NCBI GenBank assembly: GCA_004295105.1
Contig: SHNC01000283.1
Location: forward strand, 1 to 32,649
From: Betaproteobacteria bacterium
GTDB lineage: Bacteria > Pseudomonadota > Gammaproteobacteria > Burkholderiales > Rhodocyclaceae
DNA length: 32,649 bases
Direction of reading: 5' to 3'
Shown: positions 6,394 through 32,649 of the stretch, piece after piece
How the letters are laid out: the number at the start of each line of letters is the position of its first letter
Numbering within the stretch: position 1 is the first letter of the stretch
Translations under genes and position numbers: made by a program
Notes under the pieces: model-generated
The model's input: only the letters and a program-made list of their open reading frames with translations
Told to the model about the DNA's origin: nothing
Databases searched by the model: none

Positions 6394-8379
6394 TCACTCG
6401 AACTCGATGATCACCTCGTCCACCGCCAGGCTGGCGCCGGGACTGGCAACCACCTTCTTCACCTTGCCGTCCTGCTCGGCCTTGAGCACGTTTTCCATCT
6501 TCATCGCCTCGATGATTGCAAGCTTCTCGCCCGCCTTCACGTCCTGGCCGACGGCGACGGACACTTCGCGCAGCAGGCCCGGCATCGGCGACAGCAGGAA
6601 CTTCGACAGGTCGGGCGGCAGCTTTTCCGGCATCAGCGACAGCAGGTGAGCGGCATGCCGGGTCATCACCATCGGCTCGACCTGCAGGCCGAAGTGCGAG
6701 ATGCGGTAACGCAGCCCGCGACGCTCGAGCTGAAGGCAGATCGGCTCGCCATTGACCGTGCCCTTGAACAGCAGGTCGCCGAAACGCCACTCGGACAGGA
6801 TGCAGTAGGCCTTGTCGTCGCTGCGCATCAGCATGCCGCCATCGACCGGCTCGACCGCCACCGGGTAATGCCGGCCGCCCATCACCACCACCCAGTCCTT
6901 GGCCACATTGCGGCCGTGGCCGGGCATCTGGCCTTCGATCTGCACTGCGCGCTGGATGTAGCGCATGCGGGCGAAGGTGGCGATGGCGGCGAGCAAGGTC
7001 GGGTCGTCATGCGGCACCATCGACGCGTCGAAACCCTGCGGGTACTCCTCGGCGATGAAGCCGGTATTGAAGTGTCCCGAGCAGAAGCGAGGATGCTGCA
7101 GCAGCGCGGCCTGGAACGGGATGTTCGAGCTGATGCCGCGGATCACGAAGGCGTTGAGCGCGTGGCGCATGCGCTCGATCGCGTTCTGGCGGTCATGGCC
7201 ATGCACGATGAGCTTGGCGATCATCGAGTCGTAGTACATCGAGATCTCGCCGCCCTCATACACACCGGTGTCGACGCGCACGCCGTGGCCTTCGGCCGGT
7301 GGCTGGAACTTCACCAGGCGGCCGGTGGAAGGCAGGAAGCCGCGGAACGGGTCTTCGGCGTTGATGCGGCATTCCATCGACCAGCCGTCGATCTTGACGT
7401 CGGCCTGGGTGAAGGACAGCTTCTCGCCGGCGGCGACGCGGATCATCTGCTCGACCAGGTCGAGCCCGGTGATGTTCTCGGTGACCGGATGCTCCACCTG
7501 CAGGCGGGTGTTCATCTCGAGGAAGTAGAAGCTCTTGTCGGCGCCGACGACGAACTCCACCGTGCCGGCGGACTCGTAGTTCACCGCGCGCGCCAGCGCC
7601 ACCGCCTGCTCGCCCATGGCCTTGCGGGTGGCCGGATCGATGAAGGGCGACGGCGCCTCCTCGATGACCTTCTGGTGGCGGCGCTGGATCGAGCATTCAC
7701 GCTCGTTCAGATACACATAGTTGCCGTGGGCGTCGCCGAGCACCTGGATCTCGATGTGGCGCGGCTCGACGACGAACTTCTCGATGAACACGCGATCGTC
7801 GCCGAAGGCGTTCTTCGCCTCATTGACGCAGGAGCTGAAGCCTTCGTGCGCTTCCTTGTCGTTGTAGGCGACACGCAGGCCCTTGCCGCCACCGCCGGCG
7901 GAGGCCTTGATCATGACCGGATAGCCGATCTTCTTCGCGATCTCGACCGCCTCGTCGGGGCCGGCGATGGCTTCGTTGTAGCCGGGGATGGTATTCACCC
8001 CTGCGGCCAGGGCGAGCTTCTTGGACTCGATCTTGTCGCCCATCTTGCCGACGGAGTACGCCTTCGGGCCGATGAACTTGATGCCTTCCTGTTCCAGCCG
8101 GCGCGAGAACTCCTCGTTCTCGGACAGGAAGCCGTAGCCGGGGTGGACGGCCTGGGCGCCGGTCTGCTTGCAGGCGGCGATGATCTTGTCCATGACCAGG
8201 TAGGACTCTTTCGACGGCGCCGGGCCGATGCACACCGCTTCGTCGGCGAGATCGACGTGCAGCGCGTCCTTGTCGGCCACCGAGTACACGGCGACGGTCT
8301 TGATGCCCATCTTGCGGGCGGTCTTGATGACCCGGCAGGCGATTTCACCGCGGTTCGCGATCAGAATCTTCTTAAACAT
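6394..8379 (-). CDS. pccA: Propionyl/acetyl-CoA carboxylase alpha subunit (biotin carboxylase + biotin carrier)
   Basis: 661 aa. The biotin carboxylase domain occupies about residues 1-450, beginning MFKKILIANRGEIACRVIKT, with the ATP-grasp glycine loop KASAGGGGKGLR (about 159-170), ERECSIQRRHQKVIEE and FLEMNTRLQVEHPVTE. A linker domain typical of propionyl-CoA carboxylases follows, then a biotinyl domain with EAMKMEN and biotinylated Lys627 near the C-terminus. It carboxylates biotin, and PccB transfers the carboxyl group to propionyl-CoA to give (S)-methylmalonyl-CoA. It is the last gene of the operon. Its start overlaps the stop of a 40-codon ORF that repeats its own first ten codons, and its ribosome site GGAG lies at the edge of a 15-bp inverted repeat, so initiation may depend on upstream translation. 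Confidence 0.95.
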   Translation of the reverse strand: MFKKILIANRGEIACRVIKTARKMGIKTVAVYSVADKDALHVDLADEAVCIGPAPSKESYLVMDKIIAACKQTGAQAVHPGYGFLSENEEFSRRLEQEGIKFIGPKAYSVGKMGDKIESKKLALAAGVNTIPGYNEAIAGPDEAVEIAKKIGYPVMIKASAGGGGKGLRVAYNDKEAHEGFSSCVNEAKNAFGDDRVFIEKFVVEPRHIEIQVLGDAHGNYVYLNERECSIQRRHQKVIEEAPSPFIDPATRKAMGEQAVALARAVNYESAGTVEFVVGADKSFYFLEMNTRLQVEHPVTENITGLDLVEQMIRVAAGEKLSFTQADVKIDGWSMECRINAEDPFRGFLPSTGRLVKFQPPAEGHGVRVDTGVYEGGEISMYYDSMIAKLIVHGHDRQNAIERMRHALNAFVIRGISSNIPFQAALLQHPRFCSGHFNTGFIAEEYPQGFDASMVPHDDPTLLAAIATFARMRYIQRAVQIEGQMPGHGRNVAKDWVVVMGGRHYPVAVEPVDGGMLMRSDDKAYCILSEWRFGDLLFKGTVNGEPICLQLERRGLRYRISHFGLQVEPMVMTRHAAHLLSLMPEKLPPDLSKFLLSPMPGLLREVSVAVGQDVKAGEKLAIIEAMKMENVLKAEQDGKVKKVVASPGASLAVDEVIIEFE

Positions 8380-10135: not shown

Positions 10136-11131
10136 TCAAGCCAGATAGCCGAGCAGGCGCTGCGCCGCAGCCGAGGGCGTGGTCGCGCCCTCTTCCACCG
10201 CGCGCGCCAGCGCCGGCAGCGCCTCCTTCACCCGCGGGTGACCGCGGAAGCGGCTGCGCAGTCCGGCATCGATCAGGTCCCACATCCAGGCGAGCGCCTG
10301 ATGACGGCGCTTGCCCTCGAACTCGCCGGACTTCGTCAGTGCGGCGCGGTAGTGCGTCACTTCCTTCCAGAAGTCGGCGATGCCCTGCTTGTGCAGCGCC
10401 GACAGCGTCAGCACCGGCACCGTCCAGTTGGGGCTCGCCGGGCGCAGCATGTGCAGCGCAGTCTTCATCTGCGATTGCGCGCGGGTGGCCGCCATCGGAT
10501 CGATGTCGGCCTTGTTGATGACGATCAGGTCGGCCAGCTCCATGATGCCCTTCTTGATCGCCTGCAGGTCGTCGCCGGCGTTGGGCAATTGCAGCAGACA
10601 GAAGATGTCGGTCATGCCGGCCACCGCGGTTTCGCTCTGCCCGACGCCGACCGTCTCGACGATGATCACGTCGAAGCCGGCGGCTTCGCACACCAGCAGC
10701 GTCTCGCGCGTCTTCTCTGCCACGCCGCCCAGGCTGCCCGCCGACGGACTCGGGCGGATGAAGGCGGCAGGGTTCTGGCTCAGCAGTTCCATGCGCGTCT
10801 TGTCGCCGAGGATGGAACCGCCGGTGAGCGACGAAGACGGGTCGACCGCCAGCACCGCCACCCGCAGCCCCTGCCCGATCAGGTACAGGCCCAGCGCCTC
10901 GATGAAGGTGGACTTGCCCACCCCGGGCACGCCGGAGATGCCGACCCGCATCGAGCCGCCGGTGTGCGGCAGCAGCGCCTCGAGCACCTGGCGCGCGCGC
11001 GCCTTGTGGTCGTCGCGCTGCGATTCGATCAGCGTGATGGCCTTGGCCAGCGGTCGCAGTCGCTGCGCCAGCACGCCGTCGACCAGTGACTGGTCCGCAG
11101 GATCGAGAAGGGATGACGTCGGAGAAAGCAT
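10136..11131 (-). CDS. meaB: Methylmalonyl-CoA mutase-associated GTPase MeaB
   Basis: 331 aa. The P-loop is [12 protein letters not shown] (64-75), followed by [20 protein letters not shown] (switch I region), [15 protein letters not shown] (switch II) and the guanine motif NKAD (206-209). This is the G3E-family chaperone that protects and reactivates adenosylcobalamin-dependent methylmalonyl-CoA mutase, gates cofactor loading, and was formerly misnamed ArgK. It sits directly downstream of the mutase gene, 122 nt away, as expected for a partner. No clear ribosome site is seen before ATG 11131, so the start is less certain than the rest. Confidence 0.95.
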
Positions 11132-11201
11132 GTTCGATCGTAGTTGGCTCGGCCCTTACTCGGCCCTTGTGCATCCGCAGGCACGGCGGCAACCGCGATC
11201 G

Positions 11202-24838: not shown

Positions 24839-25774
24839 ATGCGTCTGCCGTTCCGCCACGCGGCGTCTTCCGTCTGCGCGGCGCTGCTCGCCCTGTTCGT
24901 CGCGCCCGCCGCCGCCGCGGCGCTGGACGTCACCACGAGCTTCAGTATCCTCGGCGATTTCGTGCGCCAGGTCGGCGGCGAGCGGGTCGCGGTGCGGGTG
25001 CTGGTGGGCCCCAACGAGGACGCGCATGCCTTCCAGCCACGGCCGTCGGATGCGCGCGCGCTCGGCAATTCGAAGCTGGTGGTGGCCAACGGTCTCGGTT
25101 TCGACGACTGGATCGTCCGCCTCGCCCGCTCCGCCGGCTTCCGCGGCACGCTGGTCGTTGCCAGCGCCGGCGTACGCACCCTGAAGATGACGCAAGTTGG
25201 GGACCGCGACGGCAAGCACGAGGGCGACCATGATCACGGCGGCGGCATCGACCCGCACGCCTGGCAGGATGTGGTCAACGCGCAGCGCTACGTGGCGAAC
25301 ATCGCCGAGGCGCTGGTCGCGGCCGACCCCGAGGGCGCACCGCTCTATCGTGCCAACGCCGAGCGCTACACGGGCAAGCTGCAGGCGCTGGACGCCGAGA
25401 TCCGCGCTGCGCTCACCCGCCTTCCACCCGCACAGCGCAAAGTGGTGAGCTCGCACGACGCATTCGGCTATTTCGCCCGTGCCTATGACATCCGTTTTCT
25501 CGCCCCGGTCGGCGTGTCGAACAATGCGGAGCCGACCGCGCAGGGCGTGGCGCAGCTCATCCGCCAGATCAAGGCGGAGCGGGCACCGGCGGTCTTCATC
25601 GAGAACGTCGCCGACCCACGCCTGATCGAGCGCATCCGCAGCGAGAGCGGCGCCCGTGTCGGCGGCACGCTTTACTCCGACGCGCTGTCCGCGGCGGACG
25701 GTGCCGCGCCCGATTACCTGGCCATGATGCGGCACAACCTGCAGCGGCTGGTTGAAGCCCTGGCGGCGCGCTGA
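24839..25774 (+). CDS. znuA: Zinc-binding periplasmic protein ZnuA
   Basis: 311 aa. A Sec signal peptide (SVCAALLALFVAPAAAAA) is cleaved near residue 28. The metal site is His63 (EDAHAFQP), His140 (IDPHAW), His206 (SSHDAFGYF) and Asp281 (YSDALS); three histidines rather than His-His-Glu-Asp favour zinc over manganese. A short acidic/His loop (KHEGDHDHGGG) precedes His140, shorter than in E. coli ZnuA. It captures zinc in the periplasm for ZnuBC. GGAG precedes the ATG. It is the last gene of the operon; no terminator hairpin was found before the phasin promoter. Confidence 0.93.
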   Translation: MRLPFRHAASSVCAALLALFVAPAAAAALDVTTSFSILGDFVRQVGGERVAVRVLVGPNEDAHAFQPRPSDARALGNSKLVVANGLGFDDWIVRLARSAGFRGTLVVASAGVRTLKMTQVGDRDGKHEGDHDHGGGIDPHAWQDVVNAQRYVANIAEALVAADPEGAPLYRANAERYTGKLQALDAEIRAALTRLPPAQRKVVSSHDAFGYFARAYDIRFLAPVGVSNNAEPTAQGVAQLIRQIKAERAPAVFIENVADPRLIERIRSESGARVGGTLYSDALSAADGAAPDYLAMMRHNLQRLVEALAAR

Positions 25775-25936: not shown

Positions 25937-26506
25937 ATGAACTACTTCACCACCCCCGACGCTTTCGCCGCCGCCAACAAGGCCAACATGGACGCGATGC
26001 AGAACATGATCGCCGGCATCCAGAACCGTGCCGAGCGCCTCGCCGCGCTGAACATGAACATCGTGCGCGCCGTGCTGGAAGACAGCGCCGCCAGCACCAA
26101 GACCCTGCTCGAACTCAAGCAGCCCCAGGATCTCGCCAAGCTGCAACAGGAGCTGGCCCAGCCGGTGGTCGACAAGTTCGTCGATTACAGCCGCAGCGTG
26201 TTCGAGATCGCCACGGAAGGCCAGCAAGAGCTGACCAAGCTGGTCGAAGCGAACATCGCCGATGTGAACAAGGCCATTGCGCAAGCGCTCGAGCAAGCCG
26301 AGAAGTCGGCCCCCAAGGGTTCGGAGCCGCTGTTCGCCGGCATGAAGCAGGCGATCGCTACCGCCAACGACGCGTACGCCGAATTCACCAAGCTGGTGAA
26401 GCAGGCCACCGAGACGCTGGAAGCCAACCTGACCGCCGCGCAGAAGGCCGCCGTGCCGGCGCCGGCCCCGAAGAAGGCCGCTGCCAAGAAGGATGCCGCC
26501 GCCTGA
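25937..26506 (+). CDS. phaP: Phasin family protein
   Basis: 189 aa, beginning MNYFTTPDAFAAANKANMDA, with long amphipathic helices, no membrane segment, and an Ala/Lys-rich C-terminal tail (PAPKKAAAKKDAAA) as in the Phasin_2 family. Phasins coat polyhydroxyalkanoate granules, control their size and prevent nonspecific protein binding. ATG 25937 has AGGAGA 6 nt upstream; the longer frame would run through the promoter. Monocistronic, with a regulated-looking promoter and a strong hairpin after it. Propionyl-CoA from the pathway genes earlier in the window could feed 3-hydroxyvalerate units, but no PHA synthase gene is in the window. Confidence 0.9.
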   Translation: MNYFTTPDAFAAANKANMDAMQNMIAGIQNRAERLAALNMNIVRAVLEDSAASTKTLLELKQPQDLAKLQQELAQPVVDKFVDYSRSVFEIATEGQQELTKLVEANIADVNKAIAQALEQAEKSAPKGSEPLFAGMKQAIATANDAYAEFTKLVKQATETLEANLTAAQKAAVPAPAPKKAAAKKDAAA

Positions 26507-26876: not shown

Positions 26877-29477
26877 ATGAAGCGCGCGCTCGCCGTCATC
26901 GTCCTGCTGGTCGCGGTGTTCGTCGCGGCAATCCCCCTCACCGCCACCACACCGCAGGGCGCGGAGACGGCTGGAGCCGCCGATGCCGTCGGCGGACCGG
27001 CCCCGGCAGCGACCGCTGCGCCGACGGCGACGAAGATCGTGCACGAGCAGGACGCGCCCTACTACGAAGCCTGCGCGCGCGAAGGCCTCAACGAGTCCGA
27101 ATGCGCCGGCCGCCTGATCTGGTTCAAGGCCACCGCCGGCAACGAACGCTTCCATACCTACGTCTTCCAGCAACGCGTCGGCGTGCTGATCGACTGGTTC
27201 CGAGTGCTGCGCGCCGACCAGCGCGGCGACCGCTTCCGCGCGTGGGGCATCATCAATGACCCGGCGTGCTGCGTGCCCGGATCGAAGAACTGCCCGGCCA
27301 AGAGCCTGGACGAGACCTACGGCCTCGACTGGTGTCCGGGCGACGAGGAACTGCTCGGCTACGTCGGCCGCAGCGGTTATCCGGATCCCGCGTGCGATTT
27401 CCGTGACGCGCCGCTGAAGGAAGGCGACCCGCACGGTAGCAGCGAACAGCGCCAGTCCGCGTGCGACCTCCACTTCGGCACCTCGACCGGCGCGCTCGGC
27501 ATCCGCAAGTTTCCCAATCCGCGCTTCGACAAGGCGGCCTGGATCAAGCTCAACGGCAAGGCCGGCTCGTGGGAAGGCTACAACCGGCCCATCGCCGCTG
27601 CCGGCGGCGGCAGCGAGGCGGCACGCTCGCACCTGCAGGACGGCGGAGTGGAACCGCCCTTCCTGATCGGCACTTCCTGCGGCTCGTGCCACATCGCCTT
27701 CGACCCGCTGAACCCGCCCGCCGACCCGGCGAACCCGAAGTGGGAAAACATCAAAGGGCTGGTCGGCAACCAGTACACCCGCATCTCCGAAATCATGGTG
27801 TCGGGCATGGCCAGCAACACGCTCGAATGGCAGATGTTCGCTCACGCACGTCCCGGCACCAGCGACACCTCGGCGATCCCCACCGACCAGGTGAACAACC
27901 CCGGCACGATCAACGCACTGATCAACATCGCCAAGCGCCCCACCTTCGCCGACGAAGACGTCATCAAGTGGCGCAAGGTCGCCAGTTGCGGCGACGACAA
28001 GGACGAGATGAGCTGCTGGTGCGAACCCGGGCGCAACGGCAAGTGCTGGAAGAAGTCGCTGCAGAAGGACACCGTGCATCACATCCTGAAGGGCGGCGAG
28101 GATTCGATCGGCGCCCTCGAGGCGATCCAGCGGGTGTATTTCAACATCGGCTCCTGCTCCGAGCAGTGCTGGGTGAACCACCTCACCGACCTGCGCCAGA
28201 TCGATCCGCAGCAGCGCAACTTCGGCCAGACGCCGTTCGACATCGGCCAGTGCCGGCGCGACTGCCCCCAATTCCGTGCGATCGAGGACCGGCTCGTCAA
28301 TATCCTCGACTTCTTCCTGTCGGCCGAGGCGCACGTCACCGACCTGCGCGCCGCGCGCGAGAACATCCGGCGCGCGGCCATGCCGACGGCGGCCTACACC
28401 GAACAGGACCTGATCGCCGATCTCGAGCAGGAATTCGGCGCCGGCGCGGTAGCGCGCGGCAGCGAGGTCTTCGCCAACACCTGCGCCCGCTGCCACTCGA
28501 GCCAGCCCGAGGCGCTCGCCGGACAGTTTGCCGGACTCGACTTCCACAAGCTCGACCTCGGCAGTGGCCTGCGCGAGGACTGGTTGGGCAACGACCGCGC
28601 CACGCCGGTGTCCGAGGTCGGCACCTTCCGCTGCCGTGCGCTGCACTCCAACCACATGGCCGGCCACGTGTGGCAGGAATATGGCTCCGAGACCCTGCGC
28701 GCACGCGCGCCCGACCCCAACGTGAAGGAGCCGGGCGACGGCGGGCGCGGCTACTACCGCAACATCTCGCTGCTCAACCTGTGGGCCCACGCCCCCTTCC
28801 TGCACAACAACGCGATGGGGCCGGAACTGTGCGGCAAGCCGAAGAACGCCGCGAACGACTTCTACGCCAAGCGGCCGCGCTATGTCGACGCCAGCAACGT
28901 CAAGCTGCTGCCGGCCGACCAGCAGCCCGCCTGCTTCGATTACGACCCCAGCGTGGAAGGCCGCTTCCGCCTGTACAAGGCTTCGATGGAGGAGCTGCTG
29001 AACCCGGCGCAGCGCATCCCCAAGGTCACCCTGCTCAACGAGGACGTCACGCTGCGCGTCGGCCCGCGGTTGTGGGACGGGACCGACAAGGAAAGGCTGC
29101 TCGGCTTCGAACTCACGATCCCGAGCGAGATCGACGGTCGCGGCGTGACCGCCGGCACCATCGGCAACTTCCAGCACAAACAGTTCATCGTCGACCTCGT
29201 ACGGGCCAAGACCGACGCCAAGGCACTGGAAGGCAGCCTCGCCGAACGCTTCGGCGCAGAGACCGGCGGCAAGGTGATGCAGGATCTGCAGGCGATCACC
29301 GGCGAGCTCGTCGGCAAGCCCAATGCGCTGGTCGAAGCGCTGAAGGCGCGCCCCTACCTGATCAAGCAGATCTACAGCAGTTGCACGGCAGAAATCGAGA
29401 ACGAAGGCCACCGCTTCGGCGAGGACCTGCCCGAGAGCGACAAGAAGGCCTTGATCGCCTTCCTCGCCACGCTGTGA
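26877..29477 (+). CDS. Exported 866-aa protein with two CXXCH haem c sites
   Basis: A hydrophobic N-terminus (residues 5-20) is a signal peptide or anchor, followed by an Ala/Pro-rich linker to about 55. Haem sites are C268-GS-C271-H272 and C536-AR-C539-H540, 268 residues apart, a long spacing resembling RoxA-type dihaem oxygenases more than cytochrome c peroxidase. LLNLWAHAPFLHNN (632-645) matches the WAxAPYLHN element of large dihaem cytochromes. About 20 further cysteines (for example CC at 131-132, CxC at 380-382, Cx3C at 427-431 and 459-463) suggest many disulfides and periplasmic or outer-surface location. ATG 26877 follows GGAGGT. It leads a cluster with a lipoprotein and a second CXXCH protein; function is unknown. 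Confidence 0.8.
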   Translation: MKRALAVIVLLVAVFVAAIPLTATTPQGAETAGAADAVGGPAPAATAAPTATKIVHEQDAPYYEACAREGLNESECAGRLIWFKATAGNERFHTYVFQQRVGVLIDWFRVLRADQRGDRFRAWGIINDPACCVPGSKNCPAKSLDETYGLDWCPGDEELLGYVGRSGYPDPACDFRDAPLKEGDPHGSSEQRQSACDLHFGTSTGALGIRKFPNPRFDKAAWIKLNGKAGSWEGYNRPIAAAGGGSEAARSHLQDGGVEPPFLIGTSCGSCHIAFDPLNPPADPANPKWENIKGLVGNQYTRISEIMVSGMASNTLEWQMFAHARPGTSDTSAIPTDQVNNPGTINALINIAKRPTFADEDVIKWRKVASCGDDKDEMSCWCEPGRNGKCWKKSLQKDTVHHILKGGEDSIGALEAIQRVYFNIGSCSEQCWVNHLTDLRQIDPQQRNFGQTPFDIGQCRRDCPQFRAIEDRLVNILDFFLSAEAHVTDLRAARENIRRAAMPTAAYTEQDLIADLEQEFGAGAVARGSEVFANTCARCHSSQPEALAGQFAGLDFHKLDLGSGLREDWLGNDRATPVSEVGTFRCRALHSNHMAGHVWQEYGSETLRARAPDPNVKEPGDGGRGYYRNISLLNLWAHAPFLHNNAMGPELCGKPKNAANDFYAKRPRYVDASNVKLLPADQQPACFDYDPSVEGRFRLYKASMEELLNPAQRIPKVTLLNEDVTLRVGPRLWDGTDKERLLGFELTIPSEIDGRGVTAGTIGNFQHKQFIVDLVRAKTDAKALEGSLAERFGAETGGKVMQDLQAITGELVGKPNALVEALKARPYLIKQIYSSCTAEIENEGHRFGEDLPESDKKALIAFLATL

Positions 29478-29494
29478 TTGCAGGGGGACATGCC

Positions 29495-30415
29495 ATGAGA
29501 CCGATCCCGACCCTCGCGCGCGCAGGCGCTGTGCTCACCGCGTTCGCGCTCGCCGGCTGCGGCTTCTTCGAGAGCGCCGAGGACAAGGCGGCGCCGGTGA
29601 TCGCGTTCGCGCCCTATACCGAACACTACGCCGGCAAACCGGACTTCGCCTACGTGGAACACCGCTTCCCGCTATCGACGACAGACCTCTACAAGATCAC
29701 GCCGAAGAACCTGTCCTTTCTCGATCAGGAACAGGTCGACCAGATCTACGCGCGACTCACTGCGGGCCCGATCCCGGACGGGCCGTTCGAGGGCGACCTG
29801 TTCTTCCCGCGCGGCGGCAGCGGCAAGCTGCGGCTATCCGAGATCGCCGGTGGTGGTCTGAAGAGCCTGCTGGTGAACGTGGCCGGCGCCAAGCTCGACG
29901 TGATCGGCGAAACGCTGTGGAAGGGCAAGGTCTTCTACCGCGACCAGCGCCTGCTGCGCAATCGCATCGAGGACCTGGCTGCGTTGAAGAAGCTTGGGCT
30001 GGTCGAGGAAAGCGCGACCAATCCGCTGCAGAAGACGCGCGTGGACGGCAAGGATCAGTGGCTGCTGTTCCCGGCCAAGCTGTATTGCGGGCAAAGCCTG
30101 CTCGACGGCCGGCGCGAGTCCATCATCATCGACTACGCGTTTACCGACGAGCTGCCGGGCTACCGCCGCATGCCCGACATCATGGCCGGCCGCGACGGCT
30201 TCGCGATCCGCGACGAGATCCGCATGGTGTATCCCGGCTTCTACCTGGGCCGCGCCTACATGGACCGCGCCTTCGTCGTGAATTTCGTGCTCTACAACAA
30301 GGAAATCGCCGAGCGCGCGAAGGATGAGTTCCTGAAGTCGGGCAAGGTGCAGCAGGATTGCTGGACCGGCACGCAGCAGCGTCTGGTGGTGATGGCGCCG
30401 GCCAGAACCGGGTAG
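29495..30415 (+). CDS. Lipoprotein of unknown function in the cytochrome cluster
   Basis: 306 aa. The signal peptide ends in a lipobox LAGC with lipidated Cys22; the next residues GFFESAED carry no Asp at +2, so outer-membrane sorting is plausible. The mature part is soluble, with no CXXCH and only two other cysteines (in KLYCGQSLL and QQDCWTG), which may form a disulfide. Features are an aromatic/charged core (AYMDRAFVVNFVLYNKEIAE near the C-terminus) and DELPGYRRMPDIMAGRDGF. I do not recognise a family. It starts 17 nt after the dihaem gene with AGGGGG upstream, so the two are co-transcribed; a scaffold or partner that docks the cytochromes on the membrane is a guess. Confidence 0.75.
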   Translation: MRPIPTLARAGAVLTAFALAGCGFFESAEDKAAPVIAFAPYTEHYAGKPDFAYVEHRFPLSTTDLYKITPKNLSFLDQEQVDQIYARLTAGPIPDGPFEGDLFFPRGGSGKLRLSEIAGGGLKSLLVNVAGAKLDVIGETLWKGKVFYRDQRLLRNRIEDLAALKKLGLVEESATNPLQKTRVDGKDQWLLFPAKLYCGQSLLDGRRESIIIDYAFTDELPGYRRMPDIMAGRDGFAIRDEIRMVYPGFYLGRAYMDRAFVVNFVLYNKEIAERAKDEFLKSGKVQQDCWTGTQQRLVVMAPARTG

Positions 30416-30474
30416 TGATCCCGGCCGTGCCTTGACGCACGTCCGGCTGCGGCCGACCTGTGCAGGGGGCGGAC

Positions 30475-32649
30475 ATGTTTCGATCGACGTCGCTGTGCGC
30501 AAGCCTGGCGCTGGCTGTGACGCCGGCACCCGCGGGCACGACGACCGCGTGGGCGGCTGCTCCGGCCAGCGTCCTCGAGGCAGCCGGTCCCGACCTGCCT
30601 CCCGTTGGACGCTCGATGTTCGACGAACTGTTCGAGGTCGGCGCCAGCGGCTCATCCTCATTGCCCTTCCCCTTCCCGGCGATGTTGCAGCGCATTGCGA
30701 GCCGACTCGACGCCAGCCAGCCGTCAGGGGGGCTTTCCGTGGTGCTGATTCCGCTCGGCCGCTCGCTTCAACGTCATGCCGCAGGCGACGTAGACGCCTT
30801 CCGCTACCCGCGCGTGGTCGCGGCCGTGACCGGCGAACCGACGGTGACGGCGCCTCCGGGCCACCCCTACCTGCGCGACCGACTTTACGTGGCCTACCAC
30901 GAGAAGGCCGCCGCCCTCGAGGTGATCAGCTACAACGAGGGCGCCGGACGCTTCGAATTCCAGTTGGTGCGCAATTATCGCGCGGGCGCCACGGCCGACG
31001 TCGGCTACGCCAGTCGTACGCTGTGCCTCGCCTGCCATCACAACGCCGCGCCCATCTTCTCGCGTCAGTCATGGGACGAGACCAGCGCCAGCGCGCCCGT
31101 GGCGGCGCGGCTGGCCGCGACCGGACTGCCGTATTACGGCCTCGACTGGCGCCATGGGGTGGACGTGCCGGATGCGATCGATGCCGCCACTGCGCGCGCC
31201 AACCTGCTCGGCGCAGCCCAACGCCTGTGGCGCGAGGGCTGCGCGGCGCCGAGCCGTGAGGCGGCGGTGGGCTGCCGTGCCGAGGCGCTGCGCCAGGCCC
31301 TGCGCCATCGGCTCACCGACGGCCGCAGCACGACGGTCGATGCGCTCGCCCAGCGGCCGGCCCTGCTCGGACCGCTGCTGGCAAACTGGCAGCAGCACTG
31401 GCCGGCAGGGCTGGCGATCGCCGACCCGTCATTGCCCAACCGGCAGCCCTTCGCCGGCATCGAGGGCGGCCGCCCGCCGCCCTCCGACGAGGAGCTGCGC
31501 CGCTACGCCGATATTTCCGCGGCTTTCGATCCGCTGGCGCTGCGCGCGCCGCTGGAAACATGGCCGGGCCGCAGTGCTGCCGATGCGGTCCGCTTCGTCG
31601 GTGCGCTGTCGATGTTCTTTTCACGGGCGGACATCGCGCTGATCGACCGGCGGCTGGCCGCCATGTCGGCTCGGCACGGCGCCGTGGCCAGCATGGCGGC
31701 ACCCGCAGGGTCGCAGCGAGGGGCCACCAACGGTCTGGCGGTCACCGACGTCGCCACCGCGAATGTCCGCCAGATCGCCCTGACCTGCACCGGACGCGCG
31801 TCCCACCCGGACAGGCTCGACCTCGACTGCCACGGGGCTGGGGGCGCCCGGCTGCAGGCGCGCCTGGTGCTGCGGGGCGGGACGCCGGCCGGCGGCAGTG
31901 TCGATCGGCTGGTCCTTCCCGGCAACGACGCCATCGGTGCGGCCGCGCTCGATCCGATTTCCGCGCCCGGAGGCGCGGCGCAGGGAACAACGCATTTTCT
32001 GCCCAGTCGCAGCGATCGCAGCGTGCGCGCCGCCAGCGGCGAGGCCGTCCGACGGATCGACGTCATGTGGCCCGCTGCGTCTGCCGACGCCGGGTCGGCG
32101 CCCCTGCGCGCAAACGTGACGCTGGTCGCCGACCTGGCGCCGCTGGACGCGGCGATCGACCGGCTCGCCGAAGCCACGCTCGCCGGTACCAGCGATGCCC
32201 TCGACGCGCTGCCGCTGCGCCGCTCGGCGGTGCTGGCACCAGTGCTCGCCAGCCTTGGCGTCTCGTCGGCAGCGATGAATTCGCCAACCGACCGGCAGTC
32301 GCGCATTGCGCCACGGCTCGCCGATCCGATCGCGGTGCGCGAGACCGTCTGGCCGCCCGACCTGCAACCTTTCGCACGCCAGTGCGGCCAGTGCCATGCC
32401 CTGGCAACCGCCTTCCCGCCGGCTTTCCTGCGCGGCAGCGACGAGCAGGTGCGGGCGCAGATCACCGGCTGCGCCGAACGCATGCTGTTCCGGCTGGCGA
32501 TGAACGCGCGCCAGCCCGCCGCACGGCCGAAGACGCCAATGCCACCACCGGCCGCCGCCCATGCGGCCGCCTTCCTGCAGTCGGCTGACCTGCCGGCGAT
32601 GACAGCCCAGCTCGAAGGGCTGCTGACGCAGCGTTCCCTCACGCCCGCC
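30475..32649 (+). CDS. Exported protein with two CXXCH haem c sites (partial at the window end)
   Basis: 725 codons, still open at the window edge. A signal-like N-terminus (CASLALAVTPAPAGTTTAWA) is followed by a region without known domain, then C184-LA-C187-H188 in CLACHHNAAPIFSRQSWDET, and far downstream C637-GQ-C640-H641 (CGQCHALA). After the second site, ARPKTPMPPP supplies a methionine in the MPP context typical of the sixth haem ligand in class I cytochromes c. About 450 residues separate the two sites, including two more cysteines (ALTC, LDLDC) near the middle. ATG 30475 is preceded by AGGGGGCGG and lies 59 nt after the lipoprotein gene. It looks like a second electron carrier or enzyme of the same cluster; family not recognised. 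Confidence 0.72.
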   Translation, partial: MFRSTSLCASLALAVTPAPAGTTTAWAAAPASVLEAAGPDLPPVGRSMFDELFEVGASGSSSLPFPFPAMLQRIASRLDASQPSGGLSVVLIPLGRSLQRHAAGDVDAFRYPRVVAAVTGEPTVTAPPGHPYLRDRLYVAYHEKAAALEVISYNEGAGRFEFQLVRNYRAGATADVGYASRTLCLACHHNAAPIFSRQSWDETSASAPVAARLAATGLPYYGLDWRHGVDVPDAIDAATARANLLGAAQRLWREGCAAPSREAAVGCRAEALRQALRHRLTDGRSTTVDALAQRPALLGPLLANWQQHWPAGLAIADPSLPNRQPFAGIEGGRPPPSDEELRRYADISAAFDPLALRAPLETWPGRSAADAVRFVGALSMFFSRADIALIDRRLAAMSARHGAVASMAAPAGSQRGATNGLAVTDVATANVRQIALTCTGRASHPDRLDLDCHGAGGARLQARLVLRGGTPAGGSVDRLVLPGNDAIGAAALDPISAPGGAAQGTTHFLPSRSDRSVRAASGEAVRRIDVMWPAASADAGSAPLRANVTLVADLAPLDAAIDRLAEATLAGTSDALDALPLRRSAVLAPVLASLGVSSAAMNSPTDRQSRIAPRLADPIAVRETVWPPDLQPFARQCGQCHALATAFPPAFLRGSDEQVRAQITGCAERMLFRLAMNARQPAARPKTPMPPPAAAHAAAFLQSADLPAMTAQLEGLLTQRSLTPA

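Follow-up and report, generated by a model that had tools for sequence, protein, structure and literature searches.

A predicted five-gene operon joins putative RoxA-type oxygenases to di-haem cytochromes and a calycin-like lipoprotein in a member of the Rhodocyclaceae

Contig SHNC01000283.1, from a genome assembly assigned to the Rhodocyclaceae (Betaproteobacteria bacterium, GCA_004295105.1), is a stretch of 32,649 nucleotides, hereafter called the window, that ends in three consecutive genes referred to here as P0001, P0002 and P0003. These genes encode a large di-haem c-type cytochrome, a lipoprotein and a second large di-haem cytochrome. A preliminary description of the window, made from its letters and open reading frames, portrayed them as tandem, closely spaced genes on one strand, in agreement with the gaps of 17 bases between P0001 and P0002 and 59 bases between P0002 and P0003. 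It also took all three products to be exported. Export remains a prediction based on hydrophobic N-terminal segments and on the lipobox of P0002; no 19-residue segment of P0003 exceeds 1.6 on the Kyte-Doolittle scale, and the signal of this protein was read by eye only.

The same description treated the cluster as a trio and suggested a look past the end of the window, where the P0003 reading frame is still open after 725 residues. In the assembly, which has 294 contigs, the window corresponds to contig C23, and an end of contig C46, on the other strand, repeats the last 211 bases of the window with one mismatch (G000:C46:19436-22867, L115). Contig C46 supplies the remainder of P0003 (18 residues and a stop codon), followed by two genes, C3a and C3b, that bring the unit to five. 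The ATG of C3a (526 amino acids in this genome) lies 21 bases past the P0003 stop codon, and C3b (517 amino acids) starts 14 bases after C3a. Both of these missed genes are clearly of RoxA type, and each product has one N-terminal hydrophobic stretch that we read as a membrane anchor. The P0001-P0002-P0003 trio is the first part of a predicted, conserved five-gene operon truncated by the window, and the operon as a whole encodes eight CXXCH sites distributed over four proteins (P0001, P0003, C3a and C3b).

Table 1. Coordinates of the operon genes and protein motifs that lie within the window
Feature	Position	Strand	Description
P0001	26877..29477	+	Gene 1; 866-amino-acid exported (predicted) di-haem c-type cytochrome, distant Cys-rich member of the RoxA/cytochrome c peroxidase superfamily
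P0001 first CXXCH	27678..27692	+	Residues 268-272; invariant in 25/25 aligned
P0001 twin CX3C	28155..28265	+	C427-C431 and C459-C463; invariant in 25/25
P0001 second CXXCH	28482..28496	+	Residues 536-540; invariant in 25/25
P0001 WAHAPFLHNN	28782..28811	+	Residues 636-645; putative counterpart of RoxA/MauG "APYxHNGSVP"; H643 in 25/25
P0001 H845	29409..29411	+	Aligns with RoxA H641 (second axial ligand, C-terminal haem)
P0002	29495..30415	+	Gene 2; 306-amino-acid lipoprotein, predicted calycin-like (lipocalin/FABP-type) barrel
P0002 lipobox LAGC	29549..29560	+	Residues 19-22; the Cys is C22
P0003	30475..32649	+	Gene 3; exported (predicted) di-haem cytochrome, putative new family, cut by contig end
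P0003 first CXXCH	31024..31038	+	Residues 184-188; invariant in 27/27 aligned
P0003 second CXXCH	32383..32397	+	Residues 637-641; invariant in 27/27; followed by M689-P690, also 27/27

The possibility that the trio is conserved as a unit, raised in the preliminary description, is borne out by a survey of loci, which also speaks against a chance arrangement. A scan of genome contigs with P0001, whose reach is limited to close relatives, returned 71 loci with 36-93% identity over the best segment, in records ranging from Thauera (Thauera sp. 2A1, at 93%, is the nearest named relative) to a Holophagales assembly. P0002 follows on the same strand in all 65 loci that have at least 1.5 kilobases (kb) of downstream sequence, and P0003 lies downstream in 56 of the 57 with at least 4.5 kb, the exception being L090. 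Where the downstream sequence reaches at least 7 kb (46 loci), P0002 and P0003 are both present in 45, two C3 genes are found near P0001 in 40 (L092 has C3 upstream of P0001), and all five genes are present in 39. In six loci the downstream sequence is shorter than 1.5 kb, and four of these (L078, L081, L098 and L099) show no partner. The trio is not always contiguous, as intervening genes of at least 2 kb occur in about 10 loci (L061, L063, L064, L066, L071, L077 and L091, for example). In six loci, including Hydrogenophilales and Thiobacillus, an alpha-amylase family gene stands between P0002 and P0003 (cluster C9; L077:11435-13282, the one member sent to Pfam). Upstream of the operon in the window are genes for a ZnuA-type zinc-binding protein (24839-25774) and a phasin (25940-26506); the ZnuA-type cluster (C33) recurs in 3 of the 71 loci (L033, L034 and L039).

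A similar association is seen among 150 related genomes (the present one included), wherein an identical set of 27 has P0001 (E up to 1e-10) and P0003 (1e-6), and P0002 (1e-6) and C3b (1e-30) are each found in 24. The P0001 genomes that lack P0002 are G042 and G093, which have divergent copies only, and G063, which has a P0001 fragment; those that lack C3b are G042, G093 and G104. Within the genus itself (G000-G028, some incomplete), 11 of the 29 genomes have P0001, and the rest of the operon tracks it. Because P0001 is patchy at this level, the unit looks to have been gained or lost as a block.

The family profile of C3a matches RoxA (4b2n) with an E-value of 1.5e-16, and residues W276, F292, H420 and H486 (L033 numbering, alignment A5) align with W302, F317, H517 and H641 of RoxA, a numbering that agrees with the H517 published for the motif PYFH517NGSVP in the available text of PMC6311187. 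The tryptophan and both histidines are present in all 19 C3a sequences and the phenylalanine in 17, with Leu in the other two. The protein also has two CXXCH sites and the MauG motif PYxHNGSVP (His in 19/19). The RoxA-like Pfam family PF21419 is matched by the L033 versions of both C3a (1.5e-16) and C3b (2e-17). In the C3b family, Leu occupies the F317 position in all 18 sequences, and the W302 position is Phe (10) or Trp (8). From these alignments, C3a belongs to the RoxA superfamily and keeps its active-site residues, and C3b is a paralogue of C3a in which Leu replaces the Phe of F317.

Rubber catabolism was rejected as a first choice for this pair, given that L033 C3a scores only 48.6, 51.1 and 75.7 bits against the curated RoxA, RoxB and RoxC models (cut-offs 1000, 900 and 900) and that many of the hosts belong to autotrophic genera. 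Scores near or above the cut-off of 150 bits are seen with NF040606, a model named for a di-heme cytochrome C peroxidase: C3a reaches 177.8 in L033 and 159.6 in the present genome, and C3b reaches 147.6 in L033, 160.7 in L074 and 113.3 in the present genome. All 25 P0001 sequences scanned touch this model as well, with P0001 itself at 27.7 bits and so below the cut-off. These matches raise the prospect that the C3 pair acts as di-haem cytochrome c peroxidases, which would reduce hydrogen peroxide or organic peroxides in the periplasm with electrons fed by P0001 and P0003. We consider this unlikely, as the peroxidase name is annotation only, C3a holds the RoxA pair W302/F317 along with a RoxA-type C-terminus, and the calycin lipoprotein, patatin and GMC oxidoreductase neighbors described below would be unneeded for peroxide removal.

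The first protein of the operon belongs to the same superfamily, at a greater distance. As the preliminary description stated, P0001 has 866 residues, widely separated CXXCH sites and about 20 additional cysteines; the count is 24 in total, or 20 beyond the haem sites. Residues H272, H540, H590, H593, H597, H643 and H845 and the four cysteines of the twin CX3C, which likely form a disulfide hairpin, are invariant in the 25 aligned sequences. Matches in Pfam consist of haem stretches and a sub-threshold RoxA-like hit of 12.3 bits (cut-off 26.7). A profile-profile comparison with the C3b family gives a probability of 97.9 and an E-value of 5.4e-13, covering the second haem through the LHNN element only, and the profile match to RoxA at H845 is weak (E 0.022). 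Considered as a RoxA/RoxB candidate, P0001 has the two CXXCH sites, the C-terminal axial His and the MauG-type His, each in 25/25 sequences, and in place of the NGSVP text its motif reads HNNAMGPE. The guessed equivalent of F317, F422, is F, I or V in 20, 4 and 1 sequences, respectively, with a placement that is uncertain because the automatic alignment puts F317 elsewhere. The RoxA-like haem spacing and WAHAPFLHNN element remarked on in the preliminary description thus reflect a resemblance that is real but confined to the second-haem region, and we regard P0001 as a distant, Cys-rich relative of RoxA.

P0001 has a paralogue family at 26-27% identity (E 1e-59 to 3e-66). For the GMC-linked paralogues this identity serves as the independent measure, since the hhalign comparison of alignments A1 and A4 is inflated by a common sequence (L102). 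A GMC oxidoreductase lies directly beside the paralogue in four of the seven paralogue loci fetched (L104, L105, L106 and L110), and also in Nitrosospira/Nitrosovibrio loci, L121, Rhizobium and Sinorhizobium; it does not adjoin the paralogue in L107, L108 and L109. In L104, L105, L106, L110 and L121 the GMC oxidoreductase gene comes immediately after the paralogue, and the two make up a pair of their own. Among the aligned sequences, the seven that are GMC-linked (L121 not included) have Leu in place of the MauG-type His, and the other four have His. Because this His is replaced, the GMC-linked paralogue probably serves another reaction, perhaps as an electron acceptor. A divergent P0001-P0003 pair in L108 has a gene for a FadL/TodX-type outer-membrane transporter (L108:17554-18951) some 6 kb away.

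P0003 passes no Pfam or NCBIfam cut-off and has no match among Protein Data Bank (PDB) sequences below E 0.02, its matches being confined to the CXXCH stretches, and on this basis it is assigned to a new two-haem family. The preliminary description had singled out its two CXXCH sites and a segment resembling NxAPIFSRxxWDE, and the sequence NAAPIFSRQSWDE indeed follows the first site (residue 184). Met-Pro-Pro occurs after the second haem in 26 of 27 sequences (Met-Pro in 27/27), and since M689-P690 is invariant there, the C-terminal haem fits a His/Met class-I type. With this resemblance to class-I cytochromes, the eight CXXCH sites over four proteins and the GMC oxidoreductases beside P0001 paralogues, the operon could encode a respiratory or extracellular electron conduit, wherein P0001 and P0003 pass electrons along a dehydrogenase-linked chain and the C3 proteins are extra carriers. 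We judge such an arrangement to be rather improbable: the five genes include no outer-membrane porin or multi-haem conduit, the operon itself is without a dehydrogenase, and the C3a site is complete and of the oxygenase type.

P0002 had been described as a lipoprotein of unknown family, and it does match no Pfam or NCBIfam family above cut-off and no PDB sequence below E 0.02; what changes is that a fold can now be proposed. A structure predicted from 40 sequences (predicted local distance difference test score, pLDDT, 86; predicted template modelling score, pTM, 0.83) has as its best and sole significant PDB match in Foldseek 4mve (Tcur_1030; E 5.6e-4). The model is predicted to be a calycin-like barrel. 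In addition to the barrel it would have in common with calycins (CRABP/FABP, NanoLuc and 4mve), P0002 has a lipoprotein anchor and an N-terminal helical part.

Short relatives of P0002 (147-192 amino acids) have no lipobox. Alignment A8 matches A7 with a probability of 100, but A8 contains A7 sequences, and the independent support for this relationship is a reverse search (E 2.1e-8) in which the window gene is the sole match in its genome. A GMC oxidoreductase adjoins the short P0002-like gene in L121 and L122, two of the four such loci seen. In L121 these two genes are accompanied by a relative of P0001 and by a gene for a DyP-like peroxidase, and in L123 the short relative adjoins a gene with a weak resemblance to catalase, below the Pfam cut-off; L134 has neither this nor a GMC oxidoreductase within 3.4 kb. 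In the deltaproteobacterial locus L102, two P0002-like genes (7383-7871 and 10524-11201) flank a divergent P0001.

One residue of P0002, W142, is invariant in all 40 P0002-type sequences. A conserved lipoprotein partner with such a residue, in company with a MauG-type His in C3a, C3b and P0001, is what might be expected if the di-haem enzymes oxidized a residue of this partner, such as W142, in the manner of MauG or MbnH. This form of protein modification seems highly improbable, given that the MbnH model TIGR04039 gives only 11-16 bits on three C3 proteins (cut-off 362.85) and that the Trp is also kept in the short proteins without a lipobox, which points to a structural role.

Several neighboring genes suggest a connection to lipids. 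Immediately upstream, 15 of the 58 loci with at least 3.2 kb of upstream sequence, or 17 of all 71, have a patatin-like gene (C4), whose frames (n=16) carry GGGIRS in 14, SGGG in 15 and DGG in 16. On plasmid pRL11 of Rhizobium johnstonii 3841, the order is NADH:flavin oxidoreductase, C3a-like (45% identical to L033 C3a), small membrane protein, C3b-like (40% to L033 C3b), P0001-like, GMC oxidoreductase and patatin; in Sinorhizobium fredii this order is repeated, except that a hypothetical protein replaces the patatin. Plasmid searches returned P0001 relatives in 21 records, all from rhizobia, and no match for P0002 or P0003. Because the rhizobial clusters keep this order, genes of the C3a, C3b and P0001 types appear to travel together even without P0002 and P0003. 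A phospholipase of the patatin type joins these genes in two settings, with patatins that are only faintly similar to each other.

The evidence leans toward an oxygenase with electron-transfer partners. Our favored explanation, to which we would give roughly an even chance, is that the operon encodes a periplasmic, membrane-associated system that combines a RoxA-type oxygenase with electron transfer and acts on hydrophobic substrates, which are probably lipids. Anchored by a membrane helix at its N-terminus, C3a would bind O2 at the N-terminal haem and oxygenate a hydrophobic molecule, for which an unsaturated lipid acyl chain or an isoprenoid is the most likely candidate. C3b would perform a second step, analogous to the way OdsA and OdsB split oleate oxidation in two in Pseudomonas. 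P0002 would shuttle or present substrate or product, and P0001 and P0003 would move electrons or carry out further oxidation.

A number of observations weigh against this proposed lipid oxygenase, whose substrate and activity are both putative. Taken alone, the RoxA stretch that includes W302 and F317 reaches an i-Evalue of just 0.12, though the WDG and FG texts align. The AlphaFold model of P0001 (25 sequences) is poor, at a pLDDT of 55, and Foldseek with this model gave no match; P0003 has no detectable homology to RoxA beyond CXXCH. A search of a viral fold library gave no match below E 0.001. For P0002, the next Foldseek matches after 4mve, NanoLuc and CRABP-II, are non-significant (E about 0.08-0.1), and none of the matches listed exceeds a TM-score of 0.31 when normalized by query length. 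All three matched proteins have the calycin fold. Two of the four short P0002-like loci (L123 and L134) lack a GMC neighbor in the stretch seen. The patatin-like gene is confined to the minority of loci given above, and of three C4 proteins sent to Pfam, that of L096 passes (28.0 against 27.7), that of L061 falls just short (26.0) and that of L060 has no match at E up to 0.01. The C3 pair was not seen in 6 of the 46 loci that have 7 kb or more of downstream sequence (L068, L082 and L100, from Nitrosospira and Nitrosovibrio, and L077, L091 and L102), and because of this absence the trio may have a function of its own. Finally, among 398 genomes drawn evenly from the phylum, an orthologous P0002 was found only in the present genome and three others have the short type only; from such searches, the operon is rare and scattered across bacteria.

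With these reservations, a lipid oxygenase can be compared with known systems. According to the sources available, the characterized substrate of RoxA-type oxygenases is rubber, joined in a single species by oleate. C3a and C3b have in common with RoxA and RoxB (Steroidobacter cummioxidans 35Y; 4b2n) the two CXXCH sites, APYxHNGSVP and the C-terminal GH ligand, and C3a also has the W302/F317 equivalents. They differ in being shorter, in having a putative membrane anchor, in forming a tandem pair within a five-gene operon and in scoring far below the Rox model cut-offs; P0001 differs in being larger, with its 20 extra Cys and altered motif. A further parallel is found in OdsA and OdsB (PA2077/PA2078), an oleate dioxygenase and a diol synthase that, in the available text of PMC4496055, are fatty-acid-oxygenating di-haem relatives of RoxA placed in a "FadCcp" subfamily and form a periplasmic pair with PYFHNGSVP. 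They are encoded in one operon, according to the portion of PMC11941309 at hand. Likened by the published description only, the two pairs have the same two-enzyme, tandem arrangement, with CXXCH and the MauG motif in both members; OdsA and OdsB are longer (634 and 624 amino acids), and PA2078 keeps F260 where C3b has Leu. The available portion of PMC4496055 describes no partner equivalent to P0001, P0002 or P0003. The preliminary description's view that no described system fits is upheld insofar as none of P0001, P0002 and P0003 passes the cut-off of a characterized family, and the titles and abstract openings returned by a literature search include, among the matches listed, no paper naming the operon.

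A more elaborate possibility, which we offer tentatively, is that the operon is a previously undescribed bacterial lipid-oxidation machine occurring in several phyla. In this scheme the calycin lipoprotein would capture membrane lipids or those released by phospholipase, and the RoxA-type pair, anchored in the membrane and connected to cytochromes of two new families, would oxygenate them. Denitrifiers and sulfur oxidisers, for which rubber has no evident use, might thereby have a pathway for oxylipins or for membrane remodelling; in ammonia oxidisers only the trio was seen.

Whether or not that scheme holds, the operon gives RoxA-type oxygenases candidate partner proteins, and two protein families, represented by P0002 and P0003, are defined. 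The "cytochrome c peroxidase" names carried by C3-type genes may mislead. Judging from the genus names in the P0001 locus scan, many of the hosts belong to autotrophic genera. The occurrence in such genera of an operon that is inherited as a block suggests that its role may be the oxidation of cell-envelope lipids or isoprenoids.

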